A stretch of DNA of 64,000 nucleotides from Castor canadensis (Eukaryota; Chordata; Mammalia; Rodentia; Castoridae), in assembly GCF_047511655.1 (NCBI RefSeq), contig NC_133398.1, forward strand, positions 45,885,638 to 45,949,637, written 5' to 3'. Positions 4,048 through 56,517 of this stretch are shown here, one piece after another; within the stretch, counting starts at the first letter, position 1, and every line of letters begins with the position of its first letter. A program made the translations under genes and the position numbers. Below the pieces are notes generated by a model. That model was not told where the DNA came from, did not search any database, and saw nothing but the letters and a program-made list of their open reading frames with translations.

Positions 4048-4052
4048 TTTTT

Positions 4053-4156
4053 AAATATGGAACACTTTACAAATTTGCATGTCATCCTTGTGCGGGAGCA
4101 TGCTAATCTTCTCCGTATCATTCCAATTTTAGTATATGTGCAACTGAAGTGAGCAC
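4053..4156 (-). pseudogene. U6 snRNA retropseudogene
   Basis: Read on the minus strand, 104 bases match U6 spliceosomal RNA from its first GTGCTC to CCATATTT near the 3' end, including the ATATACTAAAATTGGAA block and AGAAGATTAGCATG. It is a dead copy: the invariant ACAGAGA box reads ACGGAGA, CpG positions have decayed, and one or two bases are missing after GCATG. The 3' end runs into an A-rich tail (minus strand). A direct repeat of 15 bases with one mismatch flanks it (4033-4047 and 4156-4170), as expected for L1-mediated retroposition. No snRNA promoter elements were recognised upstream. Confidence 0.93.
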
Positions 4157-30235: not shown

Positions 30236-30308
30236 CCACTCAACAACTCTGCTGAATATGTTAATGGGTCGTGATTTTTCTATCTTCAGCATCCAGTGAT
30301 TACTATAA
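30236..30308 (+). repeat. Donor copy of 73-bp templated patch
   Basis: These 73 bases reappear at 31703-31775 with one difference (C at 30270, T at 31737, a CpG-to-TpG change). This copy lies in continuous flanking DNA, about 236 bases before the left TSD of the antisense L1, so it is the likely source. Confidence 0.95.
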
Positions 30309-30543: not shown

Positions 30544-30552
30544 TCTGGCCCC
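30544..30552. repeat. Target-site duplication of antisense L1 (left copy)
   Basis: TCTGGCCCC here and at 32915-32923. Allowing one gap it may extend to about 13 bases. Confidence 0.8.
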
Positions 30553-31040
30553 CTCTTTTTTTAATTCATATGTGCATACAATGTTTGGGTCATTTCTCCC
30601 CGCTTCCCTCCCCCCACTCCCTCCCCCCTCCCCCCACACCCTCCCTATTCCCCCCACCCCCTCGATACCCAGCAGAAACTATTTTGCCCTTATTTCTAAT
30701 TTTGTTGTAGAGAGAGTATAAGCAATAATAGGAAGGAACAAGGGTTTTTGCTGGTTGAGATAAGGATAGCTATACAGGGAGTTGACTCACATTGATTTCC
30801 TGTGCATGTGTGTTACCTTCTAGGTTAATTCTTCTTGAGCTAACCTTTTCTCTAGTTCCTGGTCCCCTTCTCCTATTGGCCTCAGTTGCTTTTAAGGTAT
30901 CTGCTTTAGTTTCTCTGTGTTGAGGGCAACAAATGCTAGCTAGTTTTTTAGGTGTCTTACCTATCCTCACCCCTCCCTTGTGTGCTCTTGCTTTTATCAT
31001 GTGATCAAGGTCCAATACCCTTGTTGTGTTTGCCCTTAAT

Positions 31041-32914
31041 CTAATGTCTGCATATGAGGGAGAACATACGATTTTTGGTCTTTTGGGCCAGGCTGACCTC
31101 ACTCAGAATGATGTTTTCCAATTCCATCCATTTACCAGCGAATGATAACATTTTGTTCTTCTTCATGGCTGCATAAAATTCCATTGTGTATAGATACCAC
31201 ATTTTCTTAATCCATTCGTCAGTGGTGGGGCATCTTGGCTGTTTCCATAACTTGGCTACTGTGAATAGTGCTGCAATAAACATGGGTGTGCAGGTGCCTC
31301 TGGAGTAATCTGTGTCACAGTCTTTTGGGTATATCCCCAAGAGTGGTATTGCTGGATCATATGGTAGATCAATGTCTAGCTTTTTAAGTAGACTCCAAAT
31401 TTTTTTCCAGAGTGGTTGTACTAGTTTACATTCCCACCAGCAGTTTAAGAGGGTTCCTTTTTCCCCAAATCCTCGCCAACACCTGTTGTTAGTGGTGTTG
31501 CTAATGATGGCTATTCTAACAGGGGTGAGGTGGAATGTTAGTGTGATTTTGATTTGCATTTCCTCAATGGCTAGAGATGGTGAGCATTTTTTCATGTATT
31601 TTTTGGCCATTTGAATTTCTTCTTTTGAGAAAGTTCTGTTTAGTTCACTTGCCCATTTCTTTATTGGTTCATTAATTTGGGGAGAATTTAGTTTTTTAAG
31701 TTCCACTCAACAACTCTGCTGAATATGTTAATGGGTTGTGATTTTTCTATCTTCAGCATCCAGTGATTACTATAATTCTGGTTATCAGTCCTTTGTCTGA
31801 TGTGTAGCTGGCAAATATTTTCTCCCACTCTGTGGGTGTTCTCTTCAGTTTAGAGACCATTTCTTTTGTTGAGCAGAAGCTTTTTAGTTTTATGAAGTCC
31901 CATTTATCCATGCTATCCCTTAGTTGCTGTGCTGCTGGGGTTCCATTGAGAAAGTTCTTATCTATACCTACTAATTCCAAAGTATTTTCTACTCGTTCTT
32001 GTATCAACTTTAGAGTTTGGGGTCTGATATTAAGATCCTTGATCCATTTTGAGTTAATATTGGTATAGGGTGATATACATGGATCTAGTTTCAGTTTTGT
32101 GCAGATGCTAACCAGTTTTCCCAGCAGTTTTTGTTGAAGAGGCTGCTATTTCTCCATTGTATATTTTTAGCTCCTTTGTCAAAGACAAGTTGGTTATAGT
32201 TGTGTGGCTTCATATCTGGGTCCTCTATTCTGTTCCACTGGTCTTCATGTCTGTTTTTGTGCCAGTACCATGCTGTTTTTATTGTTATTGTTTTGAAATA
32301 TAGTTTGAAGTCGGGTATTGTGATACCTCCTGCATTGTTCTTTTGACTCAGCATTGCCTTGGCTGTTCATGGCCTCTTATGTTTCCATATAAATTTAATG
32401 GTAGATTTTTCAATTTCTTTAATGAATGTCATTGGGATTTTGATGGGAATTGCATTAAACATGTAGATTACTTTTGGGAGTATGGGCATTTTTACTATGT
32501 TGATTCTACCAATCCATGAGCATGGGAGATCTCTCCACTTTCTATAGTCTTCTTCAATCTCTTCCTTCAGAAGTTTATAGTTTTCCTTGTAGAGGTCGTT
32601 CACATCCTTTGTTAGGTTTACACCTAGGTATTTGATTTTTTTTGAGGCTATTGTAAATGGAATTGTTTGCATATATTCTTTCTCAGTTTGTTCATTATTA
32701 GTGTATAGAAATGCTAATGATTTTTCTGTGTTGATTTTATATCCTGCTAACTTGCTATAGCTATTGATGGTGTCTAGGAGCTTTTGTGTAGAGTTTTTTG
32801 GGTCTTTAAGGTATAGGATCATGTTATCTGCAAATAGGGATATTTTGACAGTTTCTTTACCTATTTGTGTTCCTTTTATTCCTTCTTCTTGCCTGATTGC
32901 TCTGGCTAGGAATT
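31041..32914 (-). pseudogene. L1 ORF2 fragment (RT to C-terminus), broken
   Basis: Pieces of ORF2p on the minus strand: the RT part after the FADN motif (32367-32828), a second part ending at 32091, a third (31753-32007) and the C-terminal part (31041-31706, ending ...FSLICRH). Breaks: TGA at 32367-32369 where an arginine CGA is expected; a one-base deletion before the K-L-K-L block near 32100, also present in the full-length copy; the 73-base insertion at 31703-31775. The RT active-site motif reads FADN (N codon 32823-32825) instead of FADD. The C-terminal zinc-knuckle-like cluster has N in place of its histidine. Not functional. Confidence 0.92.
31703..31775 (+). repeat. Templated 73-bp insertion inside L1 ORF2
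   Basis: Copy of 30236-30308 in the same chromosomal orientation, offset 1467 bases. The junctions show 2-3 bases of microhomology (CC on the left, TA/A on the right). In the full-length L1 the corresponding place (near 41388-41397) lacks it. Confidence 0.95.
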
Positions 32915-32923
32915 TCTGGCCCC

Positions 32924-35384: not shown

Positions 35385-36978
35385 CCAAGATGGTGGCTAG
35401 AGGTAGGAAGCAGAAAGAGAGCCTCCTATAGTGAAATCTTGGAGAGACGCTGGAGACACACTTTGCAGGTATAATCACTGAGAAAAGGCATAACTTTGAC
35501 CCCTCCACACCTCCAGCCAGTGCAGAGAATCTCCACCTCATGTTAAATGGAGAAACGAAGAGGGCCCCCAGGGCCGCCAGTGGCCAGCACCCATATGGCT
35601 TGGGAAGACGTGGACCAGGTGAGCTTCGCAGTACCGTGGTACCCCCACAGACAAGCCTGGGCCAGAGCAGCATAGCCCCCTGGACAGACTGACCTCCACC
35701 CAGGGAAAAAAAGAGAAACTGAGTAATAAGCAATAAGAACAATTAAGATACACTGGAAAGAGGGTGGGGTGCACTGAGTGCCAAAGGTTGGGGGAAGGGA
35801 ATCCTTCCCGGGACTGTAAATAAACAAGCTGGCCTGGCCGGAGAGGCTCTGTTGGGAGAGGGTGCACACCTAGCAACCAGGAGCGGGAAAGCTTGTGAGA
35901 GTGGCGGAGGGAGGAAAACTCCACAGGAGAGGAGGGAAGACCCACGTCCAACGTGAACTGTAAATAAACATGGCGGCCAGCAGGAGAAGCAGCACCACCC
36001 AGTAATCAGGAGCAGGAAAGCTTGTGAAAGTGGCAGTGGGAGGAAAACTGCACAGGAGAGGGGGGAAGAACCACCTCCCACATGAACTGTAAATAAACAC
36101 ACAGGCCTGACAACGCGGGGGCAGTGTCACTTATCCCAGTGCTTGGAAAAGGGAAAGCCTGTAGCAGAGGCTTCCACACAGGAGAACTCGGAACAAACAA
36201 AGCCTGTGGGACCAGGTGAGTGCTAGCTCACCCCAGAGATCTGCATAAATAATGCCGCCAGCTACAGCAGGCTGAGAGCAGCAGGCAGGCAAGCCACAGT
36301 TGCAGATACCTCAGAACTGTCTCCAGACTCTTTTTTTTTCTTTTTCTCCCTACCTTTGATGAGAGAACAACCGAATTACACCTGCAAGCCAAAAAACTTA
36401 CTGAAACTGTATGGCATTTGAACATGGGACACTTGGTGGGGCTTTTTTTCTGTGTGTGTGTGTGTGTAGTTTTGTTCTACTTTATGCATCCCCTTTGATG
36501 AGACAACGACAGAACAACATCTGTGGCACCATCTCCAGGACTGGAGACTGAGACGGACACCCAAATTATTAAGACTGAAACTGCATTGCATATAAACTTG
36601 GAAGTTTTGGTTTTTTTTTTTTAATTTTCTATTTTCCATTTTATTTTAATTCATTTTTATATATAGATATTTCTTTCATTTACTTATTTTTTATTTTTTT
36701 ATCTTTGATTTTCAATCCTCTCTCCGTATCTCTAATGTCTGTTCAGCTTACTGTCGATTAGTACACTAACGCTCCCTGGTTATACCTTTGAAACTTTCTT
36801 GTCTGAAACCTTGTTCTGTTTTCTCCCTCTTGTCTGTATATTTGTTTTCCCCTTTTCTTTAACTTCTTGCTTTCCATCTCAGCTCACCCTTCCATTCTAA
36901 ATATTACCATTGTTATTATTACAAGCTAGAAAATACTTAATTGCACACAGTACAGGGACAGTAACAACACCAAAGACA
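35385..36978 (+). promoter_or_regulatory. L1 5'UTR / internal promoter region
   Basis: Most G+C-rich part of the window. At its 5' end 35387-35397 reads AAGATGGTGGC, one base off the YY1 consensus AANATGGCGGC; YY1 near +13 directs start-site choice in human L1. A second, perfect match (AACATGGCGGC) is at 35967-35977 in the second tandem unit. The region ends in T-rich sequence (36605-36720) and a Kozak-poor leader before ORF1. Promoter activity is inferred from L1 biology. Confidence 0.7.
35813..36098 (+). repeat. Tandem repeat units in the L1 5'UTR
   Basis: The motif ACTGTAAATAAAC recurs at 35813, 35957 and 36086 (spacing 144 and 129). Between them are repeated blocks: 'agcaaccaggagcgggaaagcttgtgag' / 'agtaatcaggagcaggaaagcttgtgaa', then 'ggaggaaaactccacaggagagg' / 'ggaggaaaactgcacaggagagg'. 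A weaker third unit continues to about 36200. This resembles the monomer-built 5'UTRs of mouse L1, with different sequence. Confidence 0.9.
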
Positions 36979-38178
36979 ATGACGGGAACACAGAAAAAAC
37001 AGGGAAACCACTTTCTCCACAGCAAAAAATTAGAACAGGAACCAGAGGGGAATGAAGAGAACAGAAACTCAGATCCAGACTCCAACAAAATGAAGATAAA
37101 CTATGCCAAAGAACCCAATGAAGCCCACAAGAATAATTTAAAAGAAGACATACTACAAGTACTCAATGAGAATTTTATAGAGATGATACTGGATAGGGTC
37201 AACCAAAATGTACAGGAGACACTCAAGAAATTCCAAGACAACAAAAATAGAGAATTTGAAAAAGCAAAAGAAGAAATAAAGGAAACCATAGAAGCACTGT
37301 ATAAACACCAAAGTGAAAGAGAGAACACAATGAATAAATGGATAAATGAACTCAGGACAAAAATTGACAACATTAAAGAGGAAACAACCCAGGATAGGGA
37401 AAACCTCAGAAAAAAGAATGAAACAGAACTGCAAAACAAAACGGAAGGCCAATCCAGCAGAATAGAACAAACAGAAGACAGAATCTCAGAACTTGAAGAT
37501 GAAATGGTAATTAAAGGAAAAACCAAAGAACTATTAATTAAACAACTCAAGACCTGTGAAAAGAAAATGCAAGAACTCACTGACTCCATCAAAAGACCAA
37601 ACTTGAGAATCATGGGCATCAAAGAAGGAGAAGAGGTGCAAGCAAAGGGAATGCGTAATATATTCAACAAAATAATAACGGAAAATTTCCCAAATCTAGA
37701 GAAAGATATTCCCATACAGATGCAGGAGGCCTCCAGGACACCAAACAGACCAGATCAAAATAGAACTACTCCAAGACATATCATCATTAAAACAACAAGT
37801 TCAGAAACTAAGGAAAGAATATTGAAGGCTGTAAGAGAGAAAAAACAAGTAACATACAAAGGTAAACCCATCAAAATCACAGCAGACTTCTCAACAGAAA
37901 CATTAAAAGCAAGAAGAGCGTGGGGTGAGATTTTCCGGGCACTGAATGAAAATAACTTCAACCCCAGGATACTCTACCCAGCAAAGCTATCATTCAAAAT
38001 AGATGGAGCAATAAAAGTCTTCCATAAGCAGAAACTAAAACAATATGTGACCACAAAGCCACCATTACAAAAGATTCTGCAAGGGATCCTGCACACAGAA
38101 AGTGACCCCCAACTTAACCATGAAAAGGCAGGCAGCACCAAACCACAGGATAAGGAAAAGCAAGACTGTAGAGAGTAA
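36979..38178 (+). CDS. LINE-1 ORF1 protein, intact
   Basis: ORF1p is the trimeric RNA-binding chaperone that coats L1 RNA in the cytoplasm. The frame is open for 422 codons from 36910, but I choose the ATG at 36979 because MTGTQKKQ resembles the lysine/glutamine-rich start of other ORF1 proteins and the first 23 codons do not; that gives 399 residues, longer than the human (338) and mouse (about 357-371) proteins. Residues about 45-205 are a charged coiled coil (heptads such as RIEQTEDRISELEDEM). An RRM starts near residue 206 with RPNLRIMGI and has ENFPNLEKD and RTPNRPDQ; the basic C-terminal domain has TLKARRAWGEIFRAL and YPAKLSFKIDG. No stop or frameshift is seen. A 50-base spacer separates it from ORF2. 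Confidence 0.9.
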   Translation: MTGTQKKQGNHFLHSKKLEQEPEGNEENRNSDPDSNKMKINYAKEPNEAHKNNLKEDILQVLNENFIEMILDRVNQNVQETLKKFQDNKNREFEKAKEEIKETIEALYKHQSERENTMNKWINELRTKIDNIKEETTQDRENLRKKNETELQNKTEGQSSRIEQTEDRISELEDEMVIKGKTKELLIKQLKTCEKKMQELTDSIKRPNLRIMGIKEGEEVQAKGMRNIFNKIITENFPNLEKDIPIQMQEASRTPNRPDQNRTTPRHIIIKTTSSETKERILKAVREKKQVTYKGKPIKITADFSTETLKARRAWGEIFRALNENNFNPRILYPAKLSFKIDGAIKVFHKQKLKQYVTTKPPLQKILQGILHTESDPQLNHEKAGSTKPQDKEKQDCRE

Positions 38179-38228
38179 CATCAAGTTAGGTGCACACAAT
38201 CAAACCATCAAACAACTAAGACAACTAA

Positions 38229-41200
38229 ATGGCAGGAATCACCACATACCTATCAGTACTAACACTTAATGTTAATGGACTTAATTCACCCATCAAAAGA
38301 CACCGTTTGACAAAATGGATTAAAAAAGAAGATCCAACAATTTGTTGCTTACAGGAGACTCAACTCACCGACAGAAATAAGCATATGCTTAGGATGAAAG
38401 GCTGGAAGAAGATTTACCAAGCCAATGGCCACCGAAAACAAGCAGGAGTAGCAATACTTATCTCTGACAAAGTAGACTTCAAACCTACATTGATCAAACG
38501 AGATAAAGAAGGACATTCCATACTAATAAAAGGGGAAATAGACCAAAAGGAAATAATAATCATCACTCTGTATGCACCCAATGTCAACACACCCAATTTC
38601 ATCAAACATACCCTGAAAGACCTAAAAGCATATATAAACGCCAACACAGTGGTTGTGGGAGTCTTTAACACTCCATTATCATCAATAGATAGGTCATCCA
38701 AACAAAAACTCAATAAAGAAATCCAAGATCTAAAATATGCAATAGATCAAGTGGACCTAGTAGATGTCTACAGAACATTTCATCCAACCTCTACACAATG
38801 TACATTCTTCTCAGCAGCCCATGGAACCTTCTCCAAAATAGATCATATCCTAGGGCACAAAGCAAGCCTCAGCAAATAGAAGAAAATAGAAATAATACCC
38901 TGCATACTATCTGACCACAATGTAGTAAAAGTAGAACTCAACAACAAAAGTAAAGACAAAAAACATGCAAACAGCTGGAAACTAAATAACTCATTACTTA
39001 ATGAAGAATGGATCATCGATGCAATAAAAGAGGAAATTAAAAAGTTCCTGGAAGTCAATGAAAATGAAAACACAACCTACTGGAACCTATGGTACACATC
39101 TAAAGCAGTCTTGAGAGGAAAGTTTATAGCCATGAGTGCATATATTAAAAAGATTGAAAGATCCCAAATCAATGACCTAATGATACATCTCAAACTCCTA
39201 GAAAAACAAGAACAAACAAATCCCAAAACAAATAGAAGGAGAGAAATAATAAAAAAAAGAGCTGAAATCAATGAAATAGAAACAAAAAAAACCATACAAA
39301 GAATTAATGAAACAAAAAGTTGGTTCTTTGAAAAAATAAACAAGATCGATAGACCCCTGGCAAACCTGACTAAAATGAGGAGAGAAAAAACCCAAATTAG
39401 TAGAATCAGGAATGCAAAAGGGGAGATAACAACAAACACCATGGAAGTCCAGGAAATCATCAGAGACTATTTTGAGAAACTATATTCAAATAACGTTGAA
39501 AATCTAAAAGAAATGGACAGATTTCTAGATACATATGATCATCCAAAACTGAACCAAGAGGAAATTAATCACCTGAATAGACCTATAACACAAAATGAAA
39601 TTGAAGCAGCAATCAAGAGTCTCCCCAAAAAGAAAAGTCCAGGACCTGATGGATTCTCTGCTGAATTCTATCAGACCTTTAAAGAAGAACTGATACCAAC
39701 CCTCCTTAAACTGTTCCACGAAATAGAAAGGGAAGGAAAACTGCCAAACACATTTTATGAAGCCAGTATTACACTTATCCCAAAACCAGGCAAAGACACC
39801 TCCAAAAAGGAGAACTATAGGCCAATCTCCTTAATGAACATTGATGCAAAAATCCTCAACAAAATAATGGCAAACTGAATTCAGCAACACATCAAAAAGA
39901 TTATTTACCACGACCAGGTAGGCTTCATCCCAGGGATGCAGGGGTGGTTCAACATACGAAAATCAATAAATGTAATAAACCACATTAACAGAAGCAAAGA
40001 CAAAAACCACTTGATCATCTCAATAGATGCAGAAAAAGCCTTTGTTAAGATCCAACATCATTTCATGATAAAAGCTCTAAGAAAACTAGGAATAGAAGGA
40101 AAGTTCCTCAACATTATAAAAGCTATATATGACAAACCTACAGCCAGCATCATACTTAATGGAGAAAAACTGAAACCATTCCCTCTAAAATCAGGAACCA
40201 GACAAGGATGCCCACTATCTCCACTCCTATTCAACATAGTCCTGGAATTCCTAGCCAGAGCAATTAGGCAAGAAGAAGGAATAAAAGGAATACAAATAGG
40301 TAAAGAAACTGTCAAAATATCCCTATTTGCAGACAACATGATCCTATACCTTAAAGACCCAAAAAACTCTACTCAGAAGCTTCTAGACATCATCAATAGC
40401 TATAGCAAGGTAGCAGGATATAAAATCAACATAGAAAAATCATTAGCATTTCTATACACTAACAATGAGCAAACTGAAAAAGAATGTATGAAAACAATTC
40501 CATTTACAATAGCCTCAAAAAAAATCAAATACCTAGGTGTAAACCTAACAAAGGATGTGAAAGACCTCTACAAGGAAAACTATACACTTCTGAAGAAAGA
40601 GATTGAGGAAGACTATAGAAAGTGGAGAGATCTCCCATGCTCATGGATTGGTAGAATCAACATAGTAAAAATGTCGATACTCCCAAAAGTAATCTACATG
40701 TTTAATGCAATTCCCATCAAAATTCCAATGACATTCATTAAAGAGATTGAAAAATCTACTGTTAAATTTATATGGAAACACAAGAGGCCCCGAATAGCCA
40801 AGGCAATACTCAGTCAAAAGAACAATGCAGGAGGTATCGCAATACCTGACTTCAAACTATATTACAAAGCCGTAGCAATAAAAACAGCATGGTACTGGCA
40901 CAAAAACAGACATGAAGACCAGTGGAACAGAATAGAGGACCCAGATATGAAGCCACACAACTATAAGCAACTTATCTTTGACAAAGGAGCTAAAAATATA
41001 AGATGGAGAAATAGCAGCCTCTTCAACAAAAACTGCTGGGAAAACTGGTTAGCATCTGCAAAAAACTGAAACTAGATCCATGTATATCACCCTATACCAA
41101 GATTAACTCAAAATGGATCAAGGATCTTAATATCAGACCCCAAACTCTTAAGTTGATACAAGAAAGAGTAGGAAATACTCTGGAGTTAGTAGGTATAGGT

Positions 41201-42045
41201 AAGAATATTCTCAATGAAACCCAGCAGCACAGCAACTAAGAGATAGCATAGATAAATGGGACCTCATAAAACTAAAAAGCTTCTGTTCATCAAAAGAAAT
41301 GGTCTCTAAACTGAAGAGAACACCCACAGAGTGGGAGAAAATATTTGCCAACTGTACATCAGACAAAGGACTGATAACCAGAATATACAGGGAACTTAAA
41401 AAACTAAATTCTCCCAAAACTAATGAACCAATAAAGAAATGGGCAAGTGAACTAAACAGAACTTTCTCAAAAGAAGAAATTCAAATGGCCAGAAAGCACA
41501 TGAAAAAATGCTCACCATCTCTAGCAATAAAGGAAATGCAAATTAAAAGCACGCTAAGATTCCACCTCACCCCTGTTAGAATAGCCATCATCAGCAACAC
41601 CACCAGCAACAGGTATTGGTGAGGATGTGGGGAAAAAGGAACCCTCTTACACTGTTGGTGGGAATGTAGACTAGTACAACCACTCTCGAAAAAAATTTGG
41701 AGTCTACTTAAAAAGCTAGACATCGATCTACCATTTGATCCAGCAATACCACTCTTGGGGATATACCCAAAAGACTGTTACTCCAGAGGCACCTGCACAT
41801 CCATGTTTATTGCGGCACTATTCACAATAGCCAAGTTATGGAAACAGCCAAGATGCCCCACCACTGACGAATGGATTAAGAAAATGTGGTATCTATACAC
41901 AATGGAATTTTATGCAGCCATGAAGAAGAAAGAAATGTTATCATTCGCTGGTAAATGGATGGAATTGGAGAACATCATTCTGAGTGAGGTTAGCCTGGCT
42001 CAAAAGACCAAAAATCGTATGTTCTCCCTCATATGTGGACATTAG
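38229..42045 (+). pseudogene. LINE-1 ORF2 (endonuclease/reverse transcriptase), broken
   Basis: ORF2p nicks target DNA and reverse-transcribes L1 RNA. Order: endonuclease (residues 1-239, N14 and E43 present), linker, RT ([22 protein letters not shown]), C-terminal cysteine-rich region. Defects: TAG at 38877-38879 (codon 217), TGA at 39876-39878 (codon 550, from arginine CGA), a one-base deletion near 41061-41066 before KLKLD, a second one-base deletion near 41218, and TGA at 41620-41622 (CGA again). Endonuclease residue 145 is V (GTC, 38661-38663) where aspartate is catalytic, and the second aspartate of FADD is N (40335-40337, residue 703). A cysteine beside the third stop is Y. All frames (0, then 2, then 1) resume in the expected place after each indel, and the sequence otherwise reads like a recent L1. 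The protein cannot be made. Confidence 0.95.
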
Positions 42046-42581
42046 ATCAAGGGCAAACACAACAATGGGATTGGACTATGAGCACATGATAAAAGCGAGA
42101 GCACACAAGGGAGGGGTGAGGATAGGTAAGACACCTAAAAAACTAGCTAGCATTTGTTGCCCTTAATGCAGAGAAACTAAAGCAGATACCTGAAAGCCAC
42201 TGAGGCCAATAGGAAGAGGGGAACAGGTACTAGAGAAAAGGTTTGATCAAGAAGAATTAACCTAGAAGGTAACACCCATGCACAAGAAATCAGTGTGAGT
42301 CAATGCCCTGTATAGCTATCCTTATCTCAACCAGCAAAAACCCTTGTTCCTTCCTATTATTGCTTATACTCTCTCTGCAACAAAATTATAAATAAGGGCA
42401 AAATAGTTTCTGCTGGGTATTGGGGGGGTGGGGGGAGAGGGAGGGGGTGGAGTGGGTGGTAAGGGAGGGGGTGGGGGCAGGGGGAAGAAATGAACCAAGT
42501 CTTGTATGCACATATGAATAATAAAAGAAAAATGATAAAAAAATCTACTTAAAAATAAATAAATAAATAAATAAATAAACA
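42046..42581 (+). other. L1 3'UTR and A-rich tail
   Basis: Follows the ORF2 stop (42043-42045). Contains 'ggtaacacccatgcacaagaaatc', the 'tagctatccttatctcaaccagc' block, the G-rich tract, a polyadenylation context (AATAATAAAAG at about 42518) and a tail that has become AAAT repeats. Very similar to 26010-26517 and the antisense 30553-31040. Confidence 0.9.
42422..42484 (+). repeat. G-rich tract in L1 3'UTR
   Basis: G-runs of up to seven in 63 bases, the same tract as at 26375-26430. Confidence 0.85.
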
Positions 42582-56423: not shown

Positions 56424-56445
56424 CATATATATATATATATATATA
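56424..56445. repeat. AT microsatellite
   Basis: AT repeat immediately before an ID-like SINE, where the reversed tail of the SINE would be. Confidence 0.8.
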
Positions 56446-56517
56446 CTGGAATTTGAACTCAGGGCCTCCAGCTTGCTAGGCAGGTGCTCTACAGCTTGAG
56501 CCACACCCCCAAGCCTT
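56446..56517 (-). mobile_element. ID-like SINE, antisense (long form)
   Basis: 'tggaatttgaactcagggcctccagcttgctaggcaggtgctctacagcttgagccac' retains the central segment of full ID-like elements. Confidence 0.85.

Follow-up and report, generated by a model that had tools for sequence, protein, structure and literature searches.

A 73-bp copy of flanking DNA inside a truncated L1 element of Castor canadensis

End joining by polymerase theta is known to produce insertions templated by flanking DNA, and in the passages of PMC12426944 cited here they are generally shorter than 25 bp. In human cells under replication stress, the insertion templates of one large data set, described in the relevant part of PMC11541566, lie no more than about 20 bp away from where the break presumably ended, and templates many kb distant have been recorded at class-switch joints (PMC7454005, excerpt). 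Junctions of the FoSTeS/MMBIR type carry templated insertions from 6 bp to more than 13 kb, as listed in Table 1 of PMC5120786, and two nearby-templated insertions given in the same source measure 7 and 15 bp.

The window analysed here, a stretch of 64,000 nucleotides (64 kb) of Castor canadensis DNA, contains an L1 element in which 73 bp of the neighbouring flank, referred to below as the patch, interrupt ORF2. As in polymerase theta joining, the template is nearby, the loss is small and the overlaps at the junctions are short; unlike the usual products of that pathway, with their insertions below 25 bp and templates at about 20 bp, the patch came in one piece of 73 bp from 1.47 kb away. For polymerase theta both its length and the distance of its template are unusual, while its form and the accompanying loss suit this enzyme. 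Template switching at little or no microhomology and variable insertion length liken the patch to FoSTeS/MMBIR events, for which several template switches or a copy-number change at the junction would be looked for. The patch shows one excursion with a return, and no larger rearrangement or second template was seen at it in the alignment to an unpatched L1. The events of MMBSearch, as described in the cited part of PMC8421209, are inverted copies within 100 bp; the patch is a direct copy at 1,467 bp. Class 2 templated sequence insertion polymorphisms (TSIPs) are likewise templated DNA patches consistent with break repair, but the donors described in the cited passages of PMC5110952 come from distant genomic regions and not, as here, from 1,467 bp. 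In the L1 chimeras that arise when the reverse transcriptase switches template or RNAs are ligated, foreign sequence is also joined to L1 (PMC13174262, excerpt), whereas the patch is enclosed by L1 and corresponds to the insertion's own flank. Class 1 TSIPs, that is L1-mediated RNA insertions, were considered and rejected: the patch has neither a duplication nor an A-tail of its own, L1 follows directly on both sides and 6 bp of it were lost.

The repeat pair and the receiving L1

Comparison of the window with itself by blastn (16-base words, at least 30 bp and at least 93% identity, with low-complexity sequence masked or removed) yielded three repeat pairs. Two of them are L1 against L1, and donor and patch (Table 1) form the sole pair that is not. 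In the repeat search the two segments agreed at 72 of their 73 bases, in the same orientation and at a spacing of 1,467 bp, which bears out the initial annotation in its claim of identity but for one C/T difference; the 235 bp found between the end of the donor and the left target-site duplication agree with the 236 bp given there. The lone mismatch falls on the only CpG of the segment, as would be expected if one copy decayed later. A 37-mer taken from the pair, with up to 3 mismatches allowed, occurs exactly twice in the 64 kb, and two matches were obtained in none of 100 dinucleotide shuffles. The chance origin of the pair is excluded. No third copy of the segment was found within the 64-kb window, and, the patch aside, the donor resembled none of the window's L1s, nor did any of its matches there fall below E 0.10. 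In a collection of viral contigs a 34-mer from the donor remained without a match; in the same collection six stretches fitted a pattern for relatives of the L1 ORF2 end and none was confirmed; both are weak nulls, since the collection consists of viral contigs and may omit the window's own genome.

In the assembly used, a local misjoin or a sequencing artefact might have doubled the 73 bp. Such an artefact is improbable, as the copies differ from each other, and do so at a CpG site, and as 6 bp of L1 were replaced with collinear L1 on both sides, unlike in a simple misjoin.

The recipient bears all the marks of L1 retroposition, namely a 3' A-tail, a 5' truncation and a 9-bp target-site duplication. 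An oligo(T) of 7 T (30556-30562) stands at its 3' end, and the ATTTTTAAAG which follows the right duplication is similar to the L1 endonuclease site, given as 5'-TTTT/A in the cited part of PMC5110952. Minus-strand ORF2 peptides could be read on either side of the patch, which shifts the ORF2 frame of this element and brings stops. When two minus-strand ORFs of this L1 were compared with Pfam, one gave RVT_1 below the curated cut-off (20.2 vs 29.6 bits), and no Pfam family was found for the C-terminal ORF. The palindromic tract between donor and L1 could, as a suggestion from its sequence, be a candidate fork-stalling site.

Table 1. Positions in the window of the donor, the patch, the receiving L1 and associated features
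Feature	Position	Strand	Basis
Donor, 73 bp of non-L1 flank on the left side of the element	30236..30308	+	repeat search; blastn within the window
(AT)n-rich palindromic tract separating donor from L1	30371..30447		inverted repeats, sequence
Left target-site duplication TCTGGCCCC, 9 bp	30544..30552		read from the sequence; identical to 32915-32923
5'-truncated L1 with the patch; 3' UTR and 3' part of ORF2	30553..32914	-	blastn to the second L1, end alignments, ORF2 peptides
Patch, copy of the donor within the L1; 70 unambiguous bases (31705-31774), the rest common to L1 at the junctions	31703..31775	+	repeat search; alignment to the unpatched L1
Right target-site duplication TCTGGCCCC, then ATTTTTAAAG	32915..32923		read from the sequence
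Six L1 bases absent from the patched L1, within the I-Y-R-E codons of ORF2	41385..41390	+	alignments, second L1

The unpatched L1 and the direction of copying

A second L1 without the patch is found on the plus strand about 9.7 kb away. To one side of the patch it aligns with the patched element at 94.6% identity (1,140 bp), to the other side at 92.0% (1,151 bp); exactly six of its bases are left unmatched between the two alignments. Accordingly, 70 unambiguous donor bases stand in for 6 L1 bases, and donor and L1 have CC in common at the left border and A at the right-hand one. The earlier estimate of about six replaced ORF2 bases is confirmed as 6 against this element, the single unpatched L1 of the window that spans the site. 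The breakpoints rest on this one reference, the site being covered at the DNA level by none of the window's remaining L1 copies. The ORF2 frame of the second L1 is continuous through the patch point.

The second L1 is long (traced over 36910-42528); its ORF1 is open, its ORF2 is broken into several pieces, and Pfam recognised in it Exo_endo_phos (38229-38879), RVT_1 (39936-41069) and two L1 ORF1 domains (37000-38178). Upstream of its ORF1, at 35813-36109, there are tandem units with a spacing of 129-144 bp which are 83-88% alike and may be promoter monomers of a 5' UTR. Among the ORF1 relatives that bear an organism name the best comes from Castor canadensis, with 82% identity across 64% of the query, and stands behind 15 JGI sequences in the ranking. 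Elsewhere in the window, a full-length match to the U6 snRNA (4051-4156, minus strand, 85.8 bits, model positions 1-105) is perhaps a retrocopy, and a tRNA-like match just over the threshold (56438-56510, minus strand, 30.1 vs 29 bits) is perhaps part of a SINE.

In the PDB, four of the seven sequences matched bear the name LINE-1 ORF2 protein and correspond to query residues 2-134 (133 residues); these chains are human. The patch-point stretch of the second L1 is free of gaps against a LINE-1 ORF2 protein chain in the one alignment examined. Chain 9d2f_J, cilia- and flagella-associated protein 61, was matched as well, to 39 residues of the L1 ORF2 fragment (41071-41700), with an E value of 9.6e-11; it perhaps reflects an L1-derived exon. 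Among the 120 ORF2 relatives listed of the 7,999 scored, 39 span the patch point under the rule used and 81 do not, and all 39 are continuous there. Eight peptides derived from the patch were sought in the 120 listed relatives and occurred in none, although the comparison with relatives is biased: with its frame broken, a patched copy would tend to escape a protein search. In one non-spanning relative, P0147, the reading frame opens with MELKKL exactly beyond the patch point, which either a second patched copy or a one-base R-to-M change would explain; at the protein level this relative is ambiguous.

The uninserted state, which fixes the direction of copying, is therefore known from the second L1, from the LINE-1 ORF2p of the PDB and from the 39 spanning relatives. 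Since ORF2 is continuous in all of these, the segment derives from the flank; the segment-free L1 is the general state and the donor is unlike the L1s of the window, hence the copying ran from the flank into the L1. Within the 64-kb window, the copy, its source and its breakpoints are established.

Another reading, in which the 73 bp were part of the L1 when it landed, or in which a third, repeated source supplied both copies, could draw on the ambiguity of P0147 and on the fact that the copy count of the segment holds for the 64-kb window; the flank may belong to an old repeat family. We regard it as very improbable: an L1 with such a cargo would have had to land by chance 235 bp from another copy, and the insert is absent from every spanning relative and its peptides from the whole listed set, from which broken-frame copies could escape.

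Junctions, timing and the proposed repair

The microhomology at the junctions of the patch amounts to 2 bp (CC) on the left and 1 bp (A) on the right. The initial annotation had given 2-3 bases; this stands for the one junction, while the other has just 1 bp. A total of at least 3 was reached in 20% of 200,000 random placements (P=0.20, mean 1.49). The microhomology of the patch does not exceed chance and cannot identify the pathway. Homologous gene conversion was rejected, as donor and recipient share just these 2 and 1 bp at the borders. For TMEJ, microhomology beyond chance and a size below 25 bp would be looked for, and the patch offers 2 + 1 bp and 73 bp, though a single event cannot exclude TMEJ. 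Duplications shorter than 2 kb at human meiotic hotspots have a median microhomology of 15 bp in the cited part of PMC7615360, and the chance-level 2 and 1 bp of the patch count against this parallel. The 50 bp next to the patch contain 2 differences on one side and 3 on the other, compared with 5.8% and 5.3% for the two flanks as a whole; no clustered mutations were seen in these 50 bp on each side, thus there is no sign of error-prone synthesis.

In a three-way alignment of L1s comprising 486 columns, 13 changes are private to the patched L1 and 18 and 14 to the other two. If the patch were coeval with the L1 insertion, 3.9 differences between donor and copy would be expected, and one is observed (P of one or fewer = 0.10; P=0.21 with a 2% branch). 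As far as divergence can tell, the patch may have been made after the insertion, a weak leaning for which P=0.10 is not decisive, and private changes older than the insertion would further weaken this dating.

A coeval origin would be conceivable if the L1 reverse transcriptase, during integration, left its RNA, copied the adjacent genomic DNA (or RNA thereof) and rejoined the L1 RNA six bases on. The new insertion would then have sampled its own target flank. The donor is indeed near the integration site, the polarity would fit, in that a plus-strand first cDNA growing rightwards from the left flank could copy the minus strand of the donor, the L1 enzyme has been described as changing over to other RNAs as templates (PMC13174262, excerpt), and the divergence allows it. 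However, two switches would be required, one of them back onto the same RNA, the chimeras in the cited passages of PMC13174262 consist of L1 and other RNAs and not of flanking DNA, and the low divergence between donor and copy leans weakly towards a later event. Such an excursion of the enzyme is unlikely, and quite unlikely in the form of a switch to the neighbouring genomic DNA strand and back.

In our judgement the patch is very probably a local templated insertion, in which germline DNA repair or a replication template switch put 73 nt of flank into the L1; a near-identical donor only 1,467 bp off is what such an event leaves. It belongs to a known kind of event and is a clean repair scar. 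The initial annotation proposed a templated insertion, and that flank was copied into the L1 is well supported by the non-L1 donor, the unpatched L1 about 9.7 kb off and the continuous relatives (39/39); break repair is a step further, and microhomology does not prove it, being at chance level. What we infer is a break, the kind of polymerase, a germline setting and the time of the event.

Under the local templated insertion, a break or a collapsed fork would have arisen within the L1 near 31703, and the right-hand 3' end or nascent strand would have primed on single-stranded flank about 1.5 kb leftward. After the copying of 70-odd bases the template would have been released, and joining to the other end at CC would have cost 6 bp. 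If the opposite resected overhang served as the template, a copy in the same orientation would result, as seen; both the direct orientation and the one-sided donor would follow, because the right 3' end would copy the left overhang and re-anneal to the left end. This would need a resection of about 1.5 kb. At human meiotic hotspots structural variants are in excess as far as resection reaches, which is about 2 kb in the cited part of PMC7615360, and a reach of this size would cover the donor distance of 1.47 kb.

Thanks to the many relatives of L1 copies, what stood at the site beforehand is knowable to the base, and the position of the patch inside an L1 makes the donor, the breakpoints, the loss and the orientation readable, giving a clean natural record of templated repair. 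One case by itself adds little; a genome-wide screen for L1 copies interrupted by stretches of their own flanks would measure the frequency and the reach of such copying.
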